DNA of 64,000 bases from Cytobacillus gottheilii (GTDB lineage Bacteria; Bacillota; Bacilli; Bacillales; Cytobacillaceae): contig NZ_KV440945.1 of assembly GCF_001636345.1 (NCBI RefSeq), positions 4,189,854-4,253,853 on the forward strand, given 5' to 3'. Made by a program: the position numbers and the translations under genes. Below are positions 2,680 through 62,088 of this stretch, in pieces. Under the pieces are notes generated by a model that saw nothing but the letters and a program-made list of their open reading frames with translations, had not been told where the DNA came from and searched no databases. Positions within the stretch are counted from its first letter, which is position 1, and each line of letters begins with the position of its first letter.

Positions 2680-4264
2680 TTATATACTCCGGTATTACAA
2701 TTACTTCCTCTGTGTCAAAAATCCTCAAAGCACATTCATTTTTATTGCCAGAAGCAGTCATATATTTTATTAAATCGTCTTTTGTAGAAAACTCTTTTCC
2801 TAGGATATTATTCATTCTTTGAATTTCATTTACTGCAACCAACTGAGGTTCCAGTGTTTTTAATGTCTCATCAGTGCTGTGACAGATTTTAATTGTTGGA
2901 TGAGATAAATACTCACTATACTTATTTTTTATATTTTGTTCTACATTCCCGTCGTTATCAGTAACTACAGCAACTTGCTTTTTTAATTTATCAGCAATTT
3001 CAAGAAAACGTTTAAATGATAACCCTCTTACGGTTATTACGTCTATGCCATCATGAATAGGCAATTTATTGTACTTTTGTAGGTATGCCTTTTGAACGAT
3101 AAGTTCATCAGAAGGTCCTTCCACTAGAATCGCTTTTTCCGATAACAATAATCGGAGAGTGTCGTAGCCCGGAAGTTTTTTGAAATACTCATATGTATCT
3201 TCATTTAAATCTGTTAAGGTCATATGATTACCGTTATTAATAAGAATTACCTTATCTAACCCCAATTTATTTAATACATAATTACTATGGGTTGTTAATA
3301 CAATCTGCTTCCCTTCGCACTTACTAGAAATTTGGTCTACTAGTTTATTCAGATTTGTGAATGATAGGTGATTTTCTGGCTCTTCAATTAATACAACATG
3401 AGCATCGTTTTCACTAGCTTCTAGCGACAATTTTAGTTTAATTGAATTCTGTTCACCTTTTCCTATTAAATCAAACGGTATACTATCTAAATAAGCAATG
3501 AGGTTAGATTCCCAACCGTTTTTTTGAGAAATATCTAAAGAAATTGCCAGATTCTTTTCCGATATTTCTCCCGTTCTTTGAGATAGCGCCGTATTCAACT
3601 CCGAGATTGCTTCAATACTAGAAAATTGCTCTTTAATATCTCTAAAATGGAAATTTAGAGCTGCACGTTGTTTGGAATCCAATGTGCTACCAATAACATT
3701 AGATATATACCTATCAGGACCATTCCATGTTTTTCCTTCAGTAGTATCAATAAGGATGCATTTTACAGGGACGTTTCGGCTGGTGATGGCATTAGATGCA
3801 AAAGAATGCCAACTAACCTTATAGTACTCAATTGGAACATTATAAATATCAGATGTGGATTCAATATAATGCTCATATTCTTCAGAGTATTCTTCATTAA
3901 ACTCAATTTCTAACTTTACACCACAAGCATTCTCTCTAACTGAATTGATTGTTCCTTTTAAATGCGATGTTTGTTCATTCTCTTGGATATAAATTTCTAT
4001 TAATATATGTGGTGGTTTTTCTCTGCTACCCCGTTTAACATCACAAATATACCTATTAACAATCTCTTTATTAAAAATAAATGGATTTAACTCGTTATGT
4101 ATACTCCGCCGATGGAGTAAACCAGTTAAGGCCAAGTTAATTGCTTCCAAAATAGTAGATTTACCTTGCTCATTATTTCCTACAAGGATGTTCATAGTAT
4201 CATTCAATCTTAAATCCAAGTTTTGAATTGATTTATAGTTTTTTATTATGATTCTATTAATCAC
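2663..4264 (-). CDS. OLD-family ATPase/TOPRIM nuclease (GajA-like)
   Basis: A 533-residue protein with an ABC/SMC-type ATPase and a C-terminal TOPRIM domain. Seen: Walker A GNNEQGKST (29-37), signature-like GKGEQNS (268-274), Walker B VVLIEEPE (290-297), H-loop TTHS (H326), TOPRIM glutamate in VEGPSD (381-386) and the acidic pair in TDNDG (D436, D438). OLD nucleases use this TOPRIM site for metal-dependent DNA cleavage; in Gabija, GajA is a nicking endonuclease controlled by nucleotide levels. The start is a GTG with GGTGAG just upstream. It is the first gene of the five-gene operon. Very confident on domain architecture; the anti-phage role is inferred from family and neighbours. Confidence 0.9.
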   Translation of the reverse strand: MINRIIIKNYKSIQNLDLRLNDTMNILVGNNEQGKSTILEAINLALTGLLHRRSIHNELNPFIFNKEIVNRYICDVKRGSREKPPHILIEIYIQENEQTSHLKGTINSVRENACGVKLEIEFNEEYSEEYEHYIESTSDIYNVPIEYYKVSWHSFASNAITSRNVPVKCILIDTTEGKTWNGPDRYISNVIGSTLDSKQRAALNFHFRDIKEQFSSIEAISELNTALSQRTGEISEKNLAISLDISQKNGWESNLIAYLDSIPFDLIGKGEQNSIKLKLSLEASENDAHVVLIEEPENHLSFTNLNKLVDQISSKCEGKQIVLTTHSNYVLNKLGLDKVILINNGNHMTLTDLNEDTYEYFKKLPGYDTLRLLLSEKAILVEGPSDELIVQKAYLQKYNKLPIHDGIDVITVRGLSFKRFLEIADKLKKQVAVVTDNDGNVEQNIKNKYSEYLSHPTIKICHSTDETLKTLEPQLVAVNEIQRMNNILGKEFSTKDDLIKYMTASGNKNECALRIFDTEEVIVIPEYINEAIE

Positions 4265-4673
4265 TGTAACTCACCACTTTCTTGAATCTTAAAGTATGGA
4301 ATCTTCTAGAGAAATGGTTGTAATGCAGCACCATTTTATGTAATTGTCATTTAATATAATTGTATAATTTTCCATCTATTAATTCTACAAATTGCGATAA
4401 TTTTTTCACAATTCATTTTACAAAGAAAAAATGTACCGTAGTTTTTCGAGATAAGTCCTTTTTTAGCAAATAGAAGATTAGAAGATGATTGCAAGGATGT
4501 CTTATATAAGATTAAAGGGGAGACACCTATCCAAACCTTATTAAAAGGAAATGAGAAGTGGATTATTTTCTCATTCATTTGGCAATCATATAATTGTTAG
4601 TGCAATCTGTATGTCAAAGACAGAAGGGGACAAAAATACTCCTTCTGTTTTTATTTTGTATACATTGCCGTAA
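4265..4673. other. Intergenic region between the defence operon and the DUF1040-like gene
   Basis: About 410 bp, AT-rich. It should hold the promoter of the leftward defence operon, but I cannot single out a convincing -35/-10 pair. The only clear structure is a hairpin at 4620-4648. The open frames inside lack ribosome sites and recognisable motifs. Confidence 0.5.
4620..4656. terminator. Probable intrinsic terminator after the DUF1040-like gene
   Basis: An 8-bp perfect stem (ACAGAAGG / CCTTCTGT) followed on the plus strand by TTTTATTTT. It lies within 20-55 bp of the stop of the minus-strand gene ending at 4674. The better T-tract is on the plus strand, so direction is uncertain. Confidence 0.45.
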
Positions 4674-5186
4674 TTACATATCAGAATATCGCTTTACCTT
4701 TTCAAAAAGTTCTATTCTCTCATTTTGTGAAAAGTTTCGAACCAGATTTACTATTGCTTCAACCGTTAACCATCTACTTTCTTGAACAAAAAACGCTTTT
4801 AGGTTTTCTTTAAAGGGAATCGTAATCTGCTCACTCTCAATCCCTGCTTCAATGAAGAGCCTTATTACTTCTTCAATCTTATCCACATTAATTTCCTCTC
4901 TTCGTAGCATTAATTCTTGTTCAATACTTGACCAATATGAGGTCAGAAATTCCTCCCACTTATCATCCTCAAGGTAGAAAAAGTCTAGGTAAGATGTTTT
5001 CTCTAGGTCAATAAAGTTTTTAGTATATACTTCTCTACGACCAAAACTGTTATTTTCTTGAGAATAGAGACTTTGTAAGTTTGAAATTAATTGATTAAAC
5101 CTCACATCGGCTTGGTGTTCCCATATCTTCTGGAGCAGGGTTAATATTCTCTTAATTCTATTAGGGTCTCTCATAATGTGCTTCAT
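4674..5186 (-). CDS. DUF1040/YihD-like hypothetical protein
   Basis: A 170-residue protein. The N-terminal part, with RDPNRIKRIL and then KIWEHQADVRFNQLI (about residues 6-35), matches the pattern I know from short DUF1040-type proteins (MRDPxRI...IW...PDLRxxQLI). The rest has acidic and aromatic helices and no catalytic motif. It sits downstream of hsdR but is separated from it by an intrinsic terminator, so it is probably transcribed on its own. The start may be the second Met, four residues in, which places the family motif at the extreme N-terminus. Function unknown. Confidence 0.65.
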   Translation of the reverse strand: MKHIMRDPNRIKRILTLLQKIWEHQADVRFNQLISNLQSLYSQENNSFGRREVYTKNFIDLEKTSYLDFFYLEDDKWEEFLTSYWSSIEQELMLRREEINVDKIEEVIRLFIEAGIESEQITIPFKENLKAFFVQESRWLTVEAIVNLVRNFSQNERIELFEKVKRYSDM

Positions 5187-31454: not shown

Positions 31455-31487
31455 GAGAAAAGACCGGGGGATCTCTCCCGCCAGTCT
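31455..31487 (-). terminator. Terminator after the thioredoxin-like gene
   Basis: Minus-strand stem AGACtgGCGGG / CCCcCGgtCT and a T-rich tail (TTTTCTC). It overlaps the final codons of the gene. Confidence 0.55.
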
Positions 31488-32037
31488 AAACCAACTTTTC
31501 TATAATACTGTCAGCCACTGTGTGCCAATGGTTCTCATCTTCTTGGTATGAAGCAGTTAAACGCTTATACATTGCCGCTTGCTCGTCCTTAAAGTCATCA
31601 GCCTCAGCATTTGGCAGCTTGCTTCTTTCAGATATAACAAGCTCTTGAAGTTTTGGAGCACGCGGTCCCCAAACAGCCACTTCTTCTCCTTCACTGTTAA
31701 GGAAAACGAAGATTGGAATGGCTCTTGATGTTCCGTTTGTTAAGTATTGATCCATTAATTCTAAGTTAGAATCTCGCAATATAAAGCGAACTTCCATGCC
31801 GATTTCCTCGGCAATCTTTAGAAGGACTGGATTGTTGAGCATCGCATCTCCACACCAGTCCTCTGTTAGCACGATTACTTTAAGCCCTTGATCTTTAACA
31901 GGCTGCAGTTTTTCTTTTTCTTCTGAGGATAAAGTATATTTGCTGTAAATCCCCATCATTTCATCTTTGTTCACGTTCATTCCAGCCAGATATTCTTCTG
32001 TTGTAAGTCCCTTATTAAACCACTCTTGTAAAGTCAT
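31486..32037 (-). CDS. Thioredoxin-family protein with WCGDA active site
   Basis: A 183-residue thioredoxin-fold protein. The usual CxxC is replaced by EDWCGDA (Cys about 62), so only one active-site cysteine remains. The cis-proline region IPIFVFL (about 107-113) is kept. Helical parts are found at both ends. Such monothiol thioredoxin-like proteins are common in Bacillus; the partner is unknown. A hairpin with T-tail at its end may terminate the transcript. Confidence 0.8.
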   Translation of the reverse strand: MTLQEWFNKGLTTEEYLAGMNVNKDEMMGIYSKYTLSSEEKEKLQPVKDQGLKVIVLTEDWCGDAMLNNPVLLKIAEEIGMEVRFILRDSNLELMDQYLTNGTSRAIPIFVFLNSEGEEVAVWGPRAPKLQELVISERSKLPNAEADDFKDEQAAMYKRLTASYQEDENHWHTVADSIIEKLV

Positions 32038-32115: not shown

Positions 32116-32823
32116 TTAATCCATCATTCGTTTTTTAAATGTAACGTAGGATAAGATAAATACCGCAGCAATCCATACACATATAACAGCAAGATAACTC
32201 CATATATCACCAAAGCCCGCTCCGGTTTGAACTTCTTTCGCTAATTCAATCAATTGAGTATTCGGCATATATTCTGCCGCCTTTAACACAGGGAAGCGCT
32301 CTGCTAAAAGAGTTGCGTATGACCCGAAAGTGAAAAGGAAGAAAAATGGCATGATCACGACAGATGCTTCCATCACTGACTTTGTTACTAATCCTAAAAT
32401 TGTTCCTAGACCGATGTAGAAAAGAGTAGATAAAGCAATCGCAACACCTACAATAACGATATTCTCTGGCTGATAATCAATGATCATAGCAGAAAATACG
32501 ATAACTAGAATAGTTGTAACGAATGTCAGTAAGCTTTTGCCAGCCAGGATTTCCAATGTACTAGCAGGTGAAAGCATAAGTCCGCGCAATGTATTTTTCT
32601 CTTTTTCTTCAGCAATTAAGGAACATTGAATATAGGCTCCAACAAGAGATAATGACATATTAATTACAGTGTAGACCATGTCAACACCCATATCACCCTG
32701 CATGCCATAAAGAAAGGCCATTAATAGCGGAACAATAACGGTAAATGATACATACATATTTTTACTAACATCTTTATAATCTTTTTGAAAAATAGCTAAA
32801 GTACGTTTTAATGAAAATGTCAT
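32116..32823 (-). CDS. ABC-2 type transporter permease
   Basis: A 235-residue membrane protein with six hydrophobic segments, in the ABC-2 pattern (LIAEEKEKNTLRGLMLSP about 69-86, a cytosolic loop seen in these permeases). Overlaps the ATPase gene by 4 bp (ATGA), so the two form one exporter. Substrate unknown; candidates are lipids, peptides or antibiotics. The LytTR/ABC fusion gene upstream is probably its regulator. Confidence 0.85.
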   Translation of the reverse strand: MTFSLKRTLAIFQKDYKDVSKNMYVSFTVIVPLLMAFLYGMQGDMGVDMVYTVINMSLSLVGAYIQCSLIAEEKEKNTLRGLMLSPASTLEILAGKSLLTFVTTILVIVFSAMIIDYQPENIVIVGVAIALSTLFYIGLGTILGLVTKSVMEASVVIMPFFFLFTFGSYATLLAERFPVLKAAEYMPNTQLIELAKEVQTGAGFGDIWSYLAVICVWIAAVFILSYVTFKKRMMD

Positions 32824-33668
32824 GATAGCTTCCTCCCTGTAATTTCTACAAATATATCTCCAAGTGTTGGCTCGTTCGAGTTAACAGAAACAACTTTATT
32901 TTCAGACATCAATTGATACATGCGCTGTGCTCCTTTATCACCTTTCTCAAGCACCTCAATCTGCCCATTATCCAGTTCAACAGATATCGTATTATCTGCA
33001 TATTGTTTGCGGAGCTGCTTAGGCGGCCCGATTAACTGGATTTTTCCTTTATTTAAAAAAGCAACGCGATCACAAAGCAATTCTGCTTCATTCATATCAT
33101 GAGTTGTTAAGAAAATCGTTGTACCATTTTCTTTCAATTGATCAAGACCACGGTAAATATGACGAGAGTTGACTGGATCAAGAGCAGAAGTTGGCTCATC
33201 CAGAAAGAGCAAATCTGGTTTGTGCAAGAATGCTCTTGCCAATGTTACACGCTGTGTCATCCCTTTTGAGAGCTTCGAAACAACTTTCTTTCTCTCATCC
33301 TTTAAATTAACCATCTCTAATACTTCGTCAATTCTGGAATGAGGTACATTGTATAATCCGCAGTATAATTTTAAATTATCGTAGATTGATAATCGTTCAT
33401 ATAATCCGCTGTTATCTGTCAGCACACCGATTCTTCCACGCTGAGCCGGATCCTTCAAAAGATGAGCAGGGCGACCAAACACATATGCTTCCCCATCTGT
33501 CTGCGCCATTTGAGCTGTTAAGATTTTAATAGTAGTTGTTTTACCTGAACCACTTGGACCAAGGAAACCAAATGTTTCACCTTTCTTAATTTGAAATGAA
33601 ACATCCTCAAGTGCTGTTTGATTGGCAAATAATTTCGCTAACGATTGAACCTCAATGATATTTTCCAT
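32820..33668 (-). CDS. ABC transporter ATP-binding protein
   Basis: A 282-residue ATPase from the ATG at 33668 (AGGAGG 6 nt upstream; the codon two before would touch the site). Walker A GPSGSGKTT (about 36-44), signature LSKGMTQRV (about 134-142), Walker B LLFLDEPTSALD (about 154-165) and H-loop TTHD. All catalytic residues are in place. Energises the neighbouring ABC-2 permease. Confidence 0.92.
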   Translation of the reverse strand: MENIIEVQSLAKLFANQTALEDVSFQIKKGETFGFLGPSGSGKTTTIKILTAQMAQTDGEAYVFGRPAHLLKDPAQRGRIGVLTDNSGLYERLSIYDNLKLYCGLYNVPHSRIDEVLEMVNLKDERKKVVSKLSKGMTQRVTLARAFLHKPDLLFLDEPTSALDPVNSRHIYRGLDQLKENGTTIFLTTHDMNEAELLCDRVAFLNKGKIQLIGPPKQLRKQYADNTISVELDNGQIEVLEKGDKGAQRMYQLMSENKVVSVNSNEPTLGDIFVEITGRKLS

Positions 33669-33792
33669 TGTCATCCTCCTGCATTTGTTTTGCTGACTCC
33701 ATCATATGGCAGTCCACAGGTTCATGCAGTATATATTCAATGAAAAGAGCAATTTAGAGGTTGAATAGACCATATAAAGGGTGAATGGAGCA

Positions 33793-34821
33793 TTATTTAA
33801 GCCCAAGCATCTCCTTTAATTCCGCCATTTTTGTTTTTGAAAGCGGAATGGATGACTGATCATGAAGGACAAGTGAATAGCTATTTCTTGTCCAGGTAAT
33901 AACCTCCCTAACCTTTTGAAGGTTAACAATGTACGAACGATGGCAGCGATAAAATCCATAAGGAAGAAGTCTTTGTTCCAATTCATTTAACGTAAACATG
34001 CTTTGATACATGTCACCTTTTATGTATAGCTGTGAGCTTCCTTCACTGCTTTCAATATAATCAATCTCAGGCGGATCAAATAGAATGATCTTTTCATTCA
34101 CTTTAGTTGGTATTTTTTCAAAGCGGACCGGCTGTACAATTGGTTCCTCTTCGACTGCCTCATCCTCCGGTTCCATTTCCTGCTGCATAACGTCCAGCTT
34201 ATGTAACCCATGTTCATCTAGCCGATAAATCGTGTTTGTAACAGCGAGAGCACTGTCCATATTACTCGTCAGCACAAAAACCGCCTTATTATTTTTTTGC
34301 AGTTCCTGGACTACCTTCATTAAAACTCGCTTTGTCTCCAGATCAACATTTTGATCCGCTTCCTCCAATATATAAATATCAGGATCGCTTAGAAGCAACT
34401 GAGCATAATGGACTCTTCTTTTTTCTGAGAATGTCAACTTGCTAATTCGGACATTTCTTTTTGCCTCAAGCTGGGTTAGTTGAAGAATTCCGTCTATCGG
34501 CAGTTTAGAATCGAATAGTCTATGATAAAACAACAGACTTTCCTTAACCGTTAGGCGCTCGTAAAGTCCATCATCAATAGACAGTATACCTACTCGCTGA
34601 TGGTAACTCTTCCCCAGCTGCTGAATACTTTTCCCATCTATAGCTATAGCCTGATCAGGAACGGGTATCTTTCTTCTTAACATTTCAAGAAGAACGGTTC
34701 TCACATTTATGCTTGTCATCAGACCGACAATTTCTCCAGATTCAATGGAAAGCTGAAAAGAGGGAAATACAATCGTATGGCCATCATGTTTTTCAATATT
34801 GTTAAATGATAAAATTGTCAC
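33793..34821 (-). CDS. LytTR DNA-binding regulator fused to a degenerate ABC ATPase domain
   Basis: From the GTG at 34821 (AAGGCGG upstream) the product has 342 residues. The N-terminal part (about 1-205) has the layout of an ABC ATPase, but Walker A is lost (GLMTSINVRT in its place) and the signature is altered (LTFSEKRRV). Walker B-like YILEEADQN remains. A linker rich in glutamate (about 212-232) leads to a C-terminal LytTR domain with FYRCHRSYIVNL (about 297-308). It likely binds DNA and controls the adjacent exporter, using the pseudo-ATPase domain as sensor. A longer in-frame start at 34884 has no ribosome site. Confidence 0.85.
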   Translation of the reverse strand: MTILSFNNIEKHDGHTIVFPSFQLSIESGEIVGLMTSINVRTVLLEMLRRKIPVPDQAIAIDGKSIQQLGKSYHQRVGILSIDDGLYERLTVKESLLFYHRLFDSKLPIDGILQLTQLEAKRNVRISKLTFSEKRRVHYAQLLLSDPDIYILEEADQNVDLETKRVLMKVVQELQKNNKAVFVLTSNMDSALAVTNTIYRLDEHGLHKLDVMQQEMEPEDEAVEEEPIVQPVRFEKIPTKVNEKIILFDPPEIDYIESSEGSSQLYIKGDMYQSMFTLNELEQRLLPYGFYRCHRSYIVNLQKVREVITWTRNSYSLVLHDQSSIPLSKTKMAELKEMLGLK

Positions 34822-35051
34822 GTTCCTACCGCCTTTTTCTGCTATATATCTAGTATCTTTGATCATTATACATGAATTTACCATGGGAAAACTTGTCTAA
34901 TTTTGAGAATAATCATCTTTTCCTGGGAAATAAAAAGAAAACATGTCGAAATTTATAGACATACTTGCGAAAAAAACACTGCTACAAAACTAAAATATTC
35001 ATATTACAATATGAAAAATCCTAGCATGGAATATGGTAATAAAAAATAAGC

Positions 35052-35292
35052 CCGTTACATTGCGCTGCGGACCCTCGCTTTCCACGGGGAGGAAGCTGAG
35101 CCTCCTCGTCGCTTCCGCTCCTGCGGGGTCTCAGCCTTTCCTCTATTGCCCGCAGGAGTCGAGTGTCCTCCGCTCCATTTCACTCGAGTTTAGAAATATT
35201 AAATGTTTAAAAACAAACAAAAAACCGGATGATTAGAAAGATTCCTAATCATTCGGTTCTGTGGTTGTGTTAAATACTATGTCCCAGCCTCT
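35052..35292. repeat. Partial MITE-like element, reversed copy
   Basis: It carries the GC-rich module (35052-35180), the hairpin AACCGGATGATTAG / CTAATCATTCGGTT (35224-35259) and one end GTCCCAGCCTC (35282-35292). The order is the reverse of the copy at 26588-26898. I could not find the other terminal repeat. Confidence 0.6.
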
Positions 35293-35326
35293 TAAGTTAG
35301 AAGGCAAGCGCCCTCCGCTTTTCTAT

Positions 35327-35577
35327 TGTCTAGTTCCAGCGGCTAGCCGCTCGAGGTCATAAGTCAATCCGTTCAGAAGGTTAAAGAACAACCTTCCGCC
35401 CGGCTCGCCTTATGCTTGCCGCGGCTGGGCAAGCCGCCTCCACTTTTCTAATTGTCTAGCTTCTGGCGCTAGGGACTCGAGGTCTTAAGCCAATCTTTCC
35501 TAAAGGTTAAAGGACAACCTTTATGCCATCTTGTCTTAAGCTTGTCGTCCCTGGGCGAGCGCCCTCCGCTTTTCTAA
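35327..35577. repeat. Tandem dispersed repeat (TGTCTAG family), two units
   Basis: Two units of about 125 bp (35327-35452 and 35453-35577). Each begins GTCTAG, contains CTCGAGGTC and a AAGGTT / AACCTT hairpin, and ends near CGCTTTTCTA or CACTTTTCTA. A fragment of the end lies just upstream (35300-35325). Related copies occur near 50.1 and 54.9 kb. Confidence 0.6.
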
Positions 35578-61971: not shown

Positions 61972-62088
61972 TCCACTCCATGGTACTCGCTTTCCGGCGG
62001 GGCGGGTGGTGAGCCTCCTCGGCGCTGTCGCACCTGCGGGGTCTCACCTTCCCACTCGTCCCGCAGGAGTCTCGCACCATTCCGTTCC
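61972..62088. repeat. GC-rich repeat module between purF and purM
   Basis: About 117 bp, far richer in GC than its surroundings, with CTTTCCGGCGGGG, GAGCCTCCTCGGCGC, GCGGGGTCTCACC and CCGCAGGAGTC. It matches the GC-rich modules at 26698-26823 (reversed) and 35052-35180. The hairpin and end repeats of the longer element are missing here. Confidence 0.65.

Follow-up and report, generated by a model that had tools for sequence, protein, structure and literature searches.

A pseudo-NBD-LytTR fusion gene in an ABC exporter locus

The 64,000-nucleotide stretch of the Cytobacillus gottheilii genome that we analyzed (the window) contains, on its minus strand, a gene at 33793-34821 that encodes a 342-aa protein with a GTG start at 34821 and a stop at 33793, and these limits match the original prediction exactly. 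The purine-rich AAAAAGGCGGTAGGAAC lies 5' of the GTG, with the RBS-like AAAAAGGCGG, and the longest frame of 39 of 52 relatives begins within five residues of the equivalent position. An alternative start at ATG 34884, reported by the ORF tool and longer by 21 residues, was not preferred because both the starts of the relatives and the upstream purine-rich and RBS-like sequence point to the GTG.

The protein joins two domains. Residues 1-211 (34189-34821, minus strand) comprise a pseudo-NBD that matches Pfam ABC_tran at 35.9 bits (cut-off 25), has an NBD-like fold and has lost the Walker A, signature and H-loop motifs. Residues 212-234 (34120-34188) are an acidic linker predicted to be disordered (pLDDT <50), and residues 235-342 (33796-34119) are a DNA-binding domain that matches Pfam LytTR at 95.5 bits (cut-off 22.6), as expected of a LytTR regulator. 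No receiver domain family was among the Pfam matches of the fusion at E 0.01. The AlphaFold2 model, built with 23 aligned sequences (pLDDT 83.3), shows an NBD followed by the low-confidence linker and a second domain. Its best Foldseek matches in the PDB are ABC NBDs (4wbs, 6hs3 and LptB), and the target-normalised TM of 0.66-0.76 to solved NBDs such as LptB and 4wbs places the first domain in the NBD fold.

The motifs required of an ATPase have degenerated in the window protein. By motif reading, the former P-loop (residues 29-46; 34684-34737) reads GEIVGLMTSINVRTVLLE at the position of Walker A, and LTFSEKRR occupies the position of the signature. The Walker B motif and D-loop read YILEEADQNVD, in which Asp has been replaced by Glu, the next Glu is retained and QNVD remains D-loop-like; the H-loop reads VLTSNMD and has lost its His. 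Pfam, motif reading and AlphaFold2/Foldseek thus agree with the prediction of an ABC layout without Walker A and signature, joined to LytTR. The same pattern extends across 109 distinct fusions, which reduce to 81 clusters when grouped at 80% identity; 107 of the fusions include the P-loop region. A canonical Walker A, as needed for a functional ATPase, was found in none of the 107, the lone pattern match (L107) having been rejected as a spurious N-terminal extension, and a vestigial GK persists in seven. An LSGGQ-like signature occurs in 0/109, and His at or beside the H-loop position in 9/109; N39 and R41 are invariant among 23 aligned sequences. Walker A is intact in all 108 distinct partner-ATPase frames. 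Among six fusions from outside the class, two (L172 and L173) keep the P-loop intact and read DEP at Walker B but lack the H-loop His, one (L171) has NGKDPL at the P-loop, and three have no P-loop motif. Because these out-of-class fusions include intact and partial P-loops, their sequences suggest that the pseudo-NBD descends from a working NBD. In the out-of-class locus L170 (fusion at 3710-4684), neither a related permease nor an ATPase lies alongside the fusion gene, and the gene of a different, hydrophobic protein seems to be next.

The ABC exporter that had been placed next to the fusion gene stands there. The adjoining gene (32820-33674, minus strand) encodes the partner ABC ATPase, in which Walker A is intact and translation probably begins at the second ATG, at 33668 (MENIIEV), after AGGAGG at 33675-33680. 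The ATPase gene overlaps by 4 bp a gene for a 235-aa ABC-2 permease (32116-32823, minus strand; identified by Pfam) that contains the loop EEKEKNTLR. A first set of loci shows a same-strand partner ATPase frame 3-317 bp downstream of the fusion in 50/50 cases and the permease after the ATPase in all 24 long loci, the permease frame of L044 being split into two pieces, as is that of L113. In a second set, which repeats first-set loci in 5 of its 64, the ATPase is present in 61/64, and many stretches end before the permease; many loci of the two sets are near relatives. A Thioredoxin_9-family gene (31486-32037; 146.6 bits) lies 78 bp past the permease gene of the window and is common, among the 24 long loci, to L034, L035 and L036 alone.

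A candidate LytTR operator before the ATPase gene

The interval between the fusion and ATPase genes holds three candidate operator repeats on the minus strand, which were recognized by repeat search and by comparison with relatives: R1, GCTCCATTCACC (33780-33791); R2, GGTCTATTCAAC (33760-33771), located 20 bp from R1 and 21 bp from R3; and R3, GCTCTTTTCATT (33739-33750), within the promoter spacer. A -10-like box, TATACT (33728-33733), follows at 16 bp from where the R3 core begins, a distance that most relatives share. An earlier candidate register in the window, ACCCTTTAT-N12-ACCTCTAAA, was replaced by the CTCCATTCA register, which the relatives show. Some other subgroups carry ACAGTTCAC-like boxes, which we take to be nearer to the LytTR consensus than CTCCATTCA.

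Boxes resembling GCTCCATTCACC (one mismatch at most) occur between the fusion stop and the ATPase start in 2-5 copies in 44/50 loci and as a single copy in the other six. A repeat pair at exactly 21 bp is present in 39/50 intergenic regions, or 31/40 after thinning at 80% identity; by the same box-pair measure, 11/50 loci have no such pair. Direct repeats about 21 bp apart, as predicted for a LytTR regulator, thus lie at the putative target promoter. In 200 dinucleotide shuffles the mean was 0.1 and the maximum 2 of 50 (spacings 20-22), a control that is optimistic because the repeat core was chosen from the same sequences. For that reason we also ran a motif-free self-match test, in which lag 21 was the strongest, at 8.92, 8.60 and 8.21 compared with 6.41, 6.28 and 6.27 for other lags (SD 0.24-0.29) in sets of 50, 25 and 34 loci; the 25-locus set held L060, a repeat of L042. 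With L060 left out and after thinning at 80% (40, 13 and 25 loci), the values were 8.78, 8.85 and 8.16 compared with 6.40, 6.30 and 6.31. No lag-21 signal was seen at the start of the ATPase coding sequence (6.40 vs 6.63); the 3' end of the coding sequence of the fusion scored 7.12 vs 6.38 (SD 0.36), and the region before the fusion showed a weak signal (7.16 vs 6.69; SD 0.17).

LytTR regulators are described as binding direct repeats of 9 bp that are separated by spacers of 11-13 bp and lie immediately 5' of the -35 element (PMC6193735). In most of our loci (48 of 50 rows profiled), the last box lies 16 bp 5' of a TATAAT-like sequence, a fixed distance that is partly built in because the anchoring searched the 15-17 bp range for such a box; a few loci were anchored on another repeat. 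The promoter profile of the 48/50 loci contains no TTGACA-like -35, and the putative promoter could be either activator-dependent or blockable by a dimer on R2-R3. Since the R2-R3 pair spans the -35 region, the arrangement suits a repressor as well as an activator.

A scan of the C. gottheilii genome returned the window site as the sole match to the pattern at one mismatch or fewer, and nine matches at two or fewer compared with six for a reversed control. In seven other genomes, each genome's own locus was recovered at two mismatches or fewer, and all three perfect matches fell at own loci. Because one-mismatch matches occur elsewhere in these seven genomes, the scan leaves room for a regulon that may be wider than the cassette itself. 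The original prediction had linked the fusion to control of the exporter genes, and this link is well supported by the 21-bp LytTR-type array and the near-constant gene order. We consider it highly probable that the array is bound by the LytTR domains, which would thereby control the operon of ATPase and permease. Taken together, the sequences show a dead NBD fused to a LytTR domain, in a protein whose gene is kept in one cluster with the genes of a true ABC ATPase and an ABC-2 permease, and a LytTR-type repeat array 5' of the ATPase gene.

Other repeated sequences were observed around the fusion gene. A palindrome, TTTCC..GGAAA, lies upstream of it at 34919-34930 (minus strand); such a palindrome is upstream in 8/50 loci and 7-20 bp past the fusion stop in 6/50 (L014, L023, L031, L041, L044 and L045). 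A long intergenic stretch (35050-35570) includes GCGGAGGGCGC at 35569 and 35318, and GACTCCTGCGGG occurs at 35160, with a second copy at 62071 (minus strand); these are perhaps extragenic repeats.

Distribution of the family and its ATPase-less variant

At E 1e-30 or better, 80 of the 397 genomes sampled from the order match the fusion; this sample scored the best few candidates per genome and included one shortened frame (G007). In the class, 59 of 348 genomes match, eight of them without a full fusion by the listed positions, which leaves 51, and a stricter phylum-wide sample (E 1e-45) gave 11 of 398, five of them outside the class. Loci drawn from the order and class samples leave out some lower-scoring places, L058 (a match to the NBD alone) was excluded from the counts, and L007, L009, L011 and L013 were excluded because they repeat named loci. 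Among the genomes listed for the order sample, two from the same genus and 13 from the same family have no match, which makes the distribution patchy. Judged from these sequences, the fusion is a patchy family and not a product of decay.

We also placed the pseudo-NBDs in a tree with partner ATPases and with 17 other ABC proteins of the C. gottheilii genome (17 of 54 matching places). All 24 pseudo-NBDs fall into a single group (100/100), and the 21 partner ATPases into a second (99/94); branching inside the pseudo-NBD group is unsure because several branches are long and the bootstrap was not fully settled. Fusion and partner co-diverge with r 0.87-0.94 (52 loci, without L036, L039, L054 and L056), a correlation that is confounded by common descent and was not counted as proof.

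Six loci lack the ATPase gene and carry the permease gene directly after the fusion gene. Three of these are the exceptions of the second set (L112, L115 and L083, with L138 being a longer stretch of L083), and three were added on follow-up (L139, L140 and L141). Fusion and permease genes overlap by 4 bp in L112, L115, L140 and L141, and L138 and L139 have a gap of 17-20 bp at this place. The 9-12 kb examined around the pairs contain no further ABC ATPase frame. A partner-class ATPase is absent genome-wide from G145 and G037 (best 181 and 184 bits); the other four genomes have one at 315-348 bits, and those of G035, G235 and G288 are housed in a second cassette. Ordinary ABC ATPases (up to 230 bits) occur in all six genomes and might serve the permease of the ATPase-less locus in trans.

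The repeat array lies elsewhere in these loci. In L138 and L139 it is past the permease gene, 5' of a small multidrug-export family gene (PF06695; 41.2 bits in L138, with the L139 gene 99% identical). L112, L140 and L141 have a homologous small multidrug-export-type gene upstream of the fusion, with the array before that gene; the L112 protein scores below the Pfam cut-off (25.1 vs 30.7) and is 44% identical to its L138 counterpart. L115 has an array at 2699-2741 without such a gene, so that array and gene occur together in five of the six loci. Relatives of the gene are also found near ATPase-bearing cassettes (L110, L111 and L123), and the scan that identified the arrays returned 16 pairs in six loci, some of them within coding sequence and likely due to chance. 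Arranged together, the P-loop-bearing out-of-class relatives, the ATPase-bearing loci and the ATPase-less loci suggest a series from motor to sensor.

Several further features were noted in these loci. A pair of genes of the small multidrug resistance (SMR) type follows the fusion and permease genes in L112 (5880-6562; Pfam) and L141 (3433-4097). In L112 (about 3735-3950) and L115 (about 3720-3920), the fusion gene seems to be closely preceded by a small hydrophobic ORF of about 70 codons. A loose three-box array with 21-bp steps is found just 5' of the ATPase-less fusion in L138 (5204-5246), which is a possible autoregulatory site. The fusion frame of L140 (5036-6043) is broken by a stop.

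Proposed permease docking, rival readings and known systems

In ABC transporters, a groove by the Q-loop of the NBD receives the coupling helix of the permease. The fusion carries YERLTV after its Q-loop (residues 87-92; 34546-34563, minus strand), and the partner ATPase has GLYERLS as the counterpart. Conservation within the pseudo-NBD peaks at Y87, which is absent from 6/109 fusions, one of them truncated. The segment 84-100 (GLYERLTV...) ranks at the top of eight compared pseudo-NBD segments by a small margin, at 2.39 bits compared with 2.20 for the Walker B/D-loop, 2.14 for the C-terminal strand, 2.12 for the signature and 2.11 for the H-loop; the P-loop scores 1.49. The pattern Y-x-R-(L/M/I) is present in 22/24 pseudo-NBDs, 20/21 partner ATPases and one of the 17 other ABC proteins of C. 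gottheilii compared (17 of 54 matching places), and across the family in 88/109 fusions. An EE-x-(E/D)-x-x-T loop is found in 67/67 permeases, those of ATPase-less loci included, in a set that leaves out split permeases and those shorter than 201 aa (L044, L113 and L118). Docking at the permease is the best reading because six loci pair the fusion with a permease and no ATPase and because the Y-x-R-L segment is shared. The earlier proposal that the pseudo-NBD takes the place of the true ATPase at the permease is therefore supported indirectly, by the ATPase-less loci, the kept permease loop and the shared Y-x-R-L.

Based on these features, we think the fusion is probably a transporter-coupled one-component regulator, and it is likewise fairly likely that its pseudo-NBD docks on the cytoplasmic loop of the permease, at the surface used by the true ATPase. 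Docked in this way, the fusion would partition between permease and promoter, and the occupancy or state of the permease would set the amount of regulator free to bind DNA. Tentatively, the fusion may be an activator held at the membrane by idle permease, with excess permease turning the operon off and substrate-engaged permease turning it on. Because the main array precedes the ATPase and permease genes and not the regulator gene, a titrated activator would impose negative feedback on the level of the exporter. In ATPase-less loci, permease and fusion would form a pure receptor that controls another exporter. A bolder and more doubtful version makes the ABC-2 permease itself a transmembrane receptor: a dead NBD that carries a DNA-binding domain would occupy the NBD site of the permease, which would provide a kinase-free, two-protein route from membrane to promoter. 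The ATPase-less form, in six genomes, would then no longer be part of any recognisable transporter, and what it controls would, in five of these genomes, be a small multidrug exporter unrelated to it.

Other readings of the pseudo-NBD were weighed against docking. It could be a mere dimerisation scaffold that places LytTR domains at 21-bp steps, with no sensing at the permease. Binding of LytTR regulators to repeats in pairs is described in PMC6193735 and PMC4227749, and the D-loop, signature and H-loop regions are nearly as conserved as the Y-x-R-L segment, which means that positions usable for plain dimerisation are kept too. However, a scaffold leaves unexplained why the permease gene is retained where the ATPase gene is gone and why fusion and partner ATPase have the Y-x-R-L segment in common, and we regard this reading as unlikely. 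Alternatively, a remodelled nucleotide pocket could bind a small ligand, such as a nucleotide or an exported drug, as in a classical ligand-sensing one-component regulator. The intact P-loops of L172 and L173, the GK of seven fusions and the invariance of N39 and R41 would fit such a sensor, but P-loop conservation is below the domain average family-wide (1.49 vs 1.66 bits), which renders it quite improbable.

Some ABC exporters are heterodimers in which one of the two NBDs is degenerate, and the segment after the Q-loop that the fusion has in common with the partner ATPase would also suit an exporter subunit, whose degenerate site would pair with the true ATPase while LytTR, with no regulatory role, anchors the exporter to DNA. 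Against this stand the LytTR domain, which is the more conserved half of the protein (2.88 bits compared with a mean of 1.66 for the pseudo-NBD), and the LytTR-type array before the ATPase gene, so that we give this possibility very little weight. The loss of ATPase motifs might also be taken for a decaying gene or a chance fusion, which is barely credible given that architecture and gene order are conserved in more than 100 loci, many of them near relatives; a pseudogene or chance reading was ruled out by the family spread (80/397) and the conserved gene order.

If docking at the permease is correct, bacteria would read the state of a transporter directly via a dead copy of its motor, and not through a kinase or a soluble ligand, with a cassette that is matched in about one-fifth of the sampled genomes of the order. 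The pairing of ABC and LytTR domains has an InterPro/PIRSF entry that amounts to a database name. Our search of the open-access literature, which partly covered the best matches of longer lists, found no paper on an ABC-LytTR fusion, and the InterPro/PIRSF identifiers of the entry had no match in the open-access papers searched. A lead in Listeria came down to a table row on AgrC, and another to a different LytTR context. The domain pairing is thus known and apparently unstudied, and the present analysis adds to it a predicted conserved operator, the partner genes, the ATPase-less variant and a suggested evolutionary series.

The closest parallels are the LytTR Regulatory Systems, in which membrane proteins restrain LytTR regulators, as outlined in portions of PMC6193735. 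As in HdrRM and BrsRM, described there, the gene of a receiver-less LytTR regulator lies just 5' of a membrane-protein gene, and there is no kinase; direct repeats that lie close to the promoter and are spaced by 11-13 bp are a further likeness, and ABC transporter genes are linked to 2/5 of the S. mutans systems (PMC6193735). Unlike what those portions give for HdrRM and BrsRM, the fusion has a pseudo-NBD and an ABC-2 permease as its partner, and the repeats follow the regulator gene, 5' of the transporter genes. These systems are two-gene units of a LytTR regulator and a transmembrane inhibitor; the ATPase-less loci have a regulator and a permease that might act as such an inhibitor, and in the window an ATPase gene lies in between. 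They also show positive autoregulation through repeats 5' of the regulator gene, and the sequences here contain the weak lag-21 signal before the fusion and the loose array in L138, which may or may not reflect this trait. In AgrA-type LytTR response regulators, a LytTR dimer occupies two direct repeats upstream of promoters, according to parts of PMC4227749; unlike AgrA, the fusion has an ABC fold and no receiver domain. The sections of PMC10427625 on maltose transport report that E. coli MalK holds MalT while the maltose transporter is idle and that transport frees MalT. We propose a likeness to this pair, in that an idle transporter would keep an activator at the membrane via NBD contacts; in MalK-MalT the NBD is active and binds a STAND activator that is a protein of its own, whereas here a dead NBD is part of the regulator itself.
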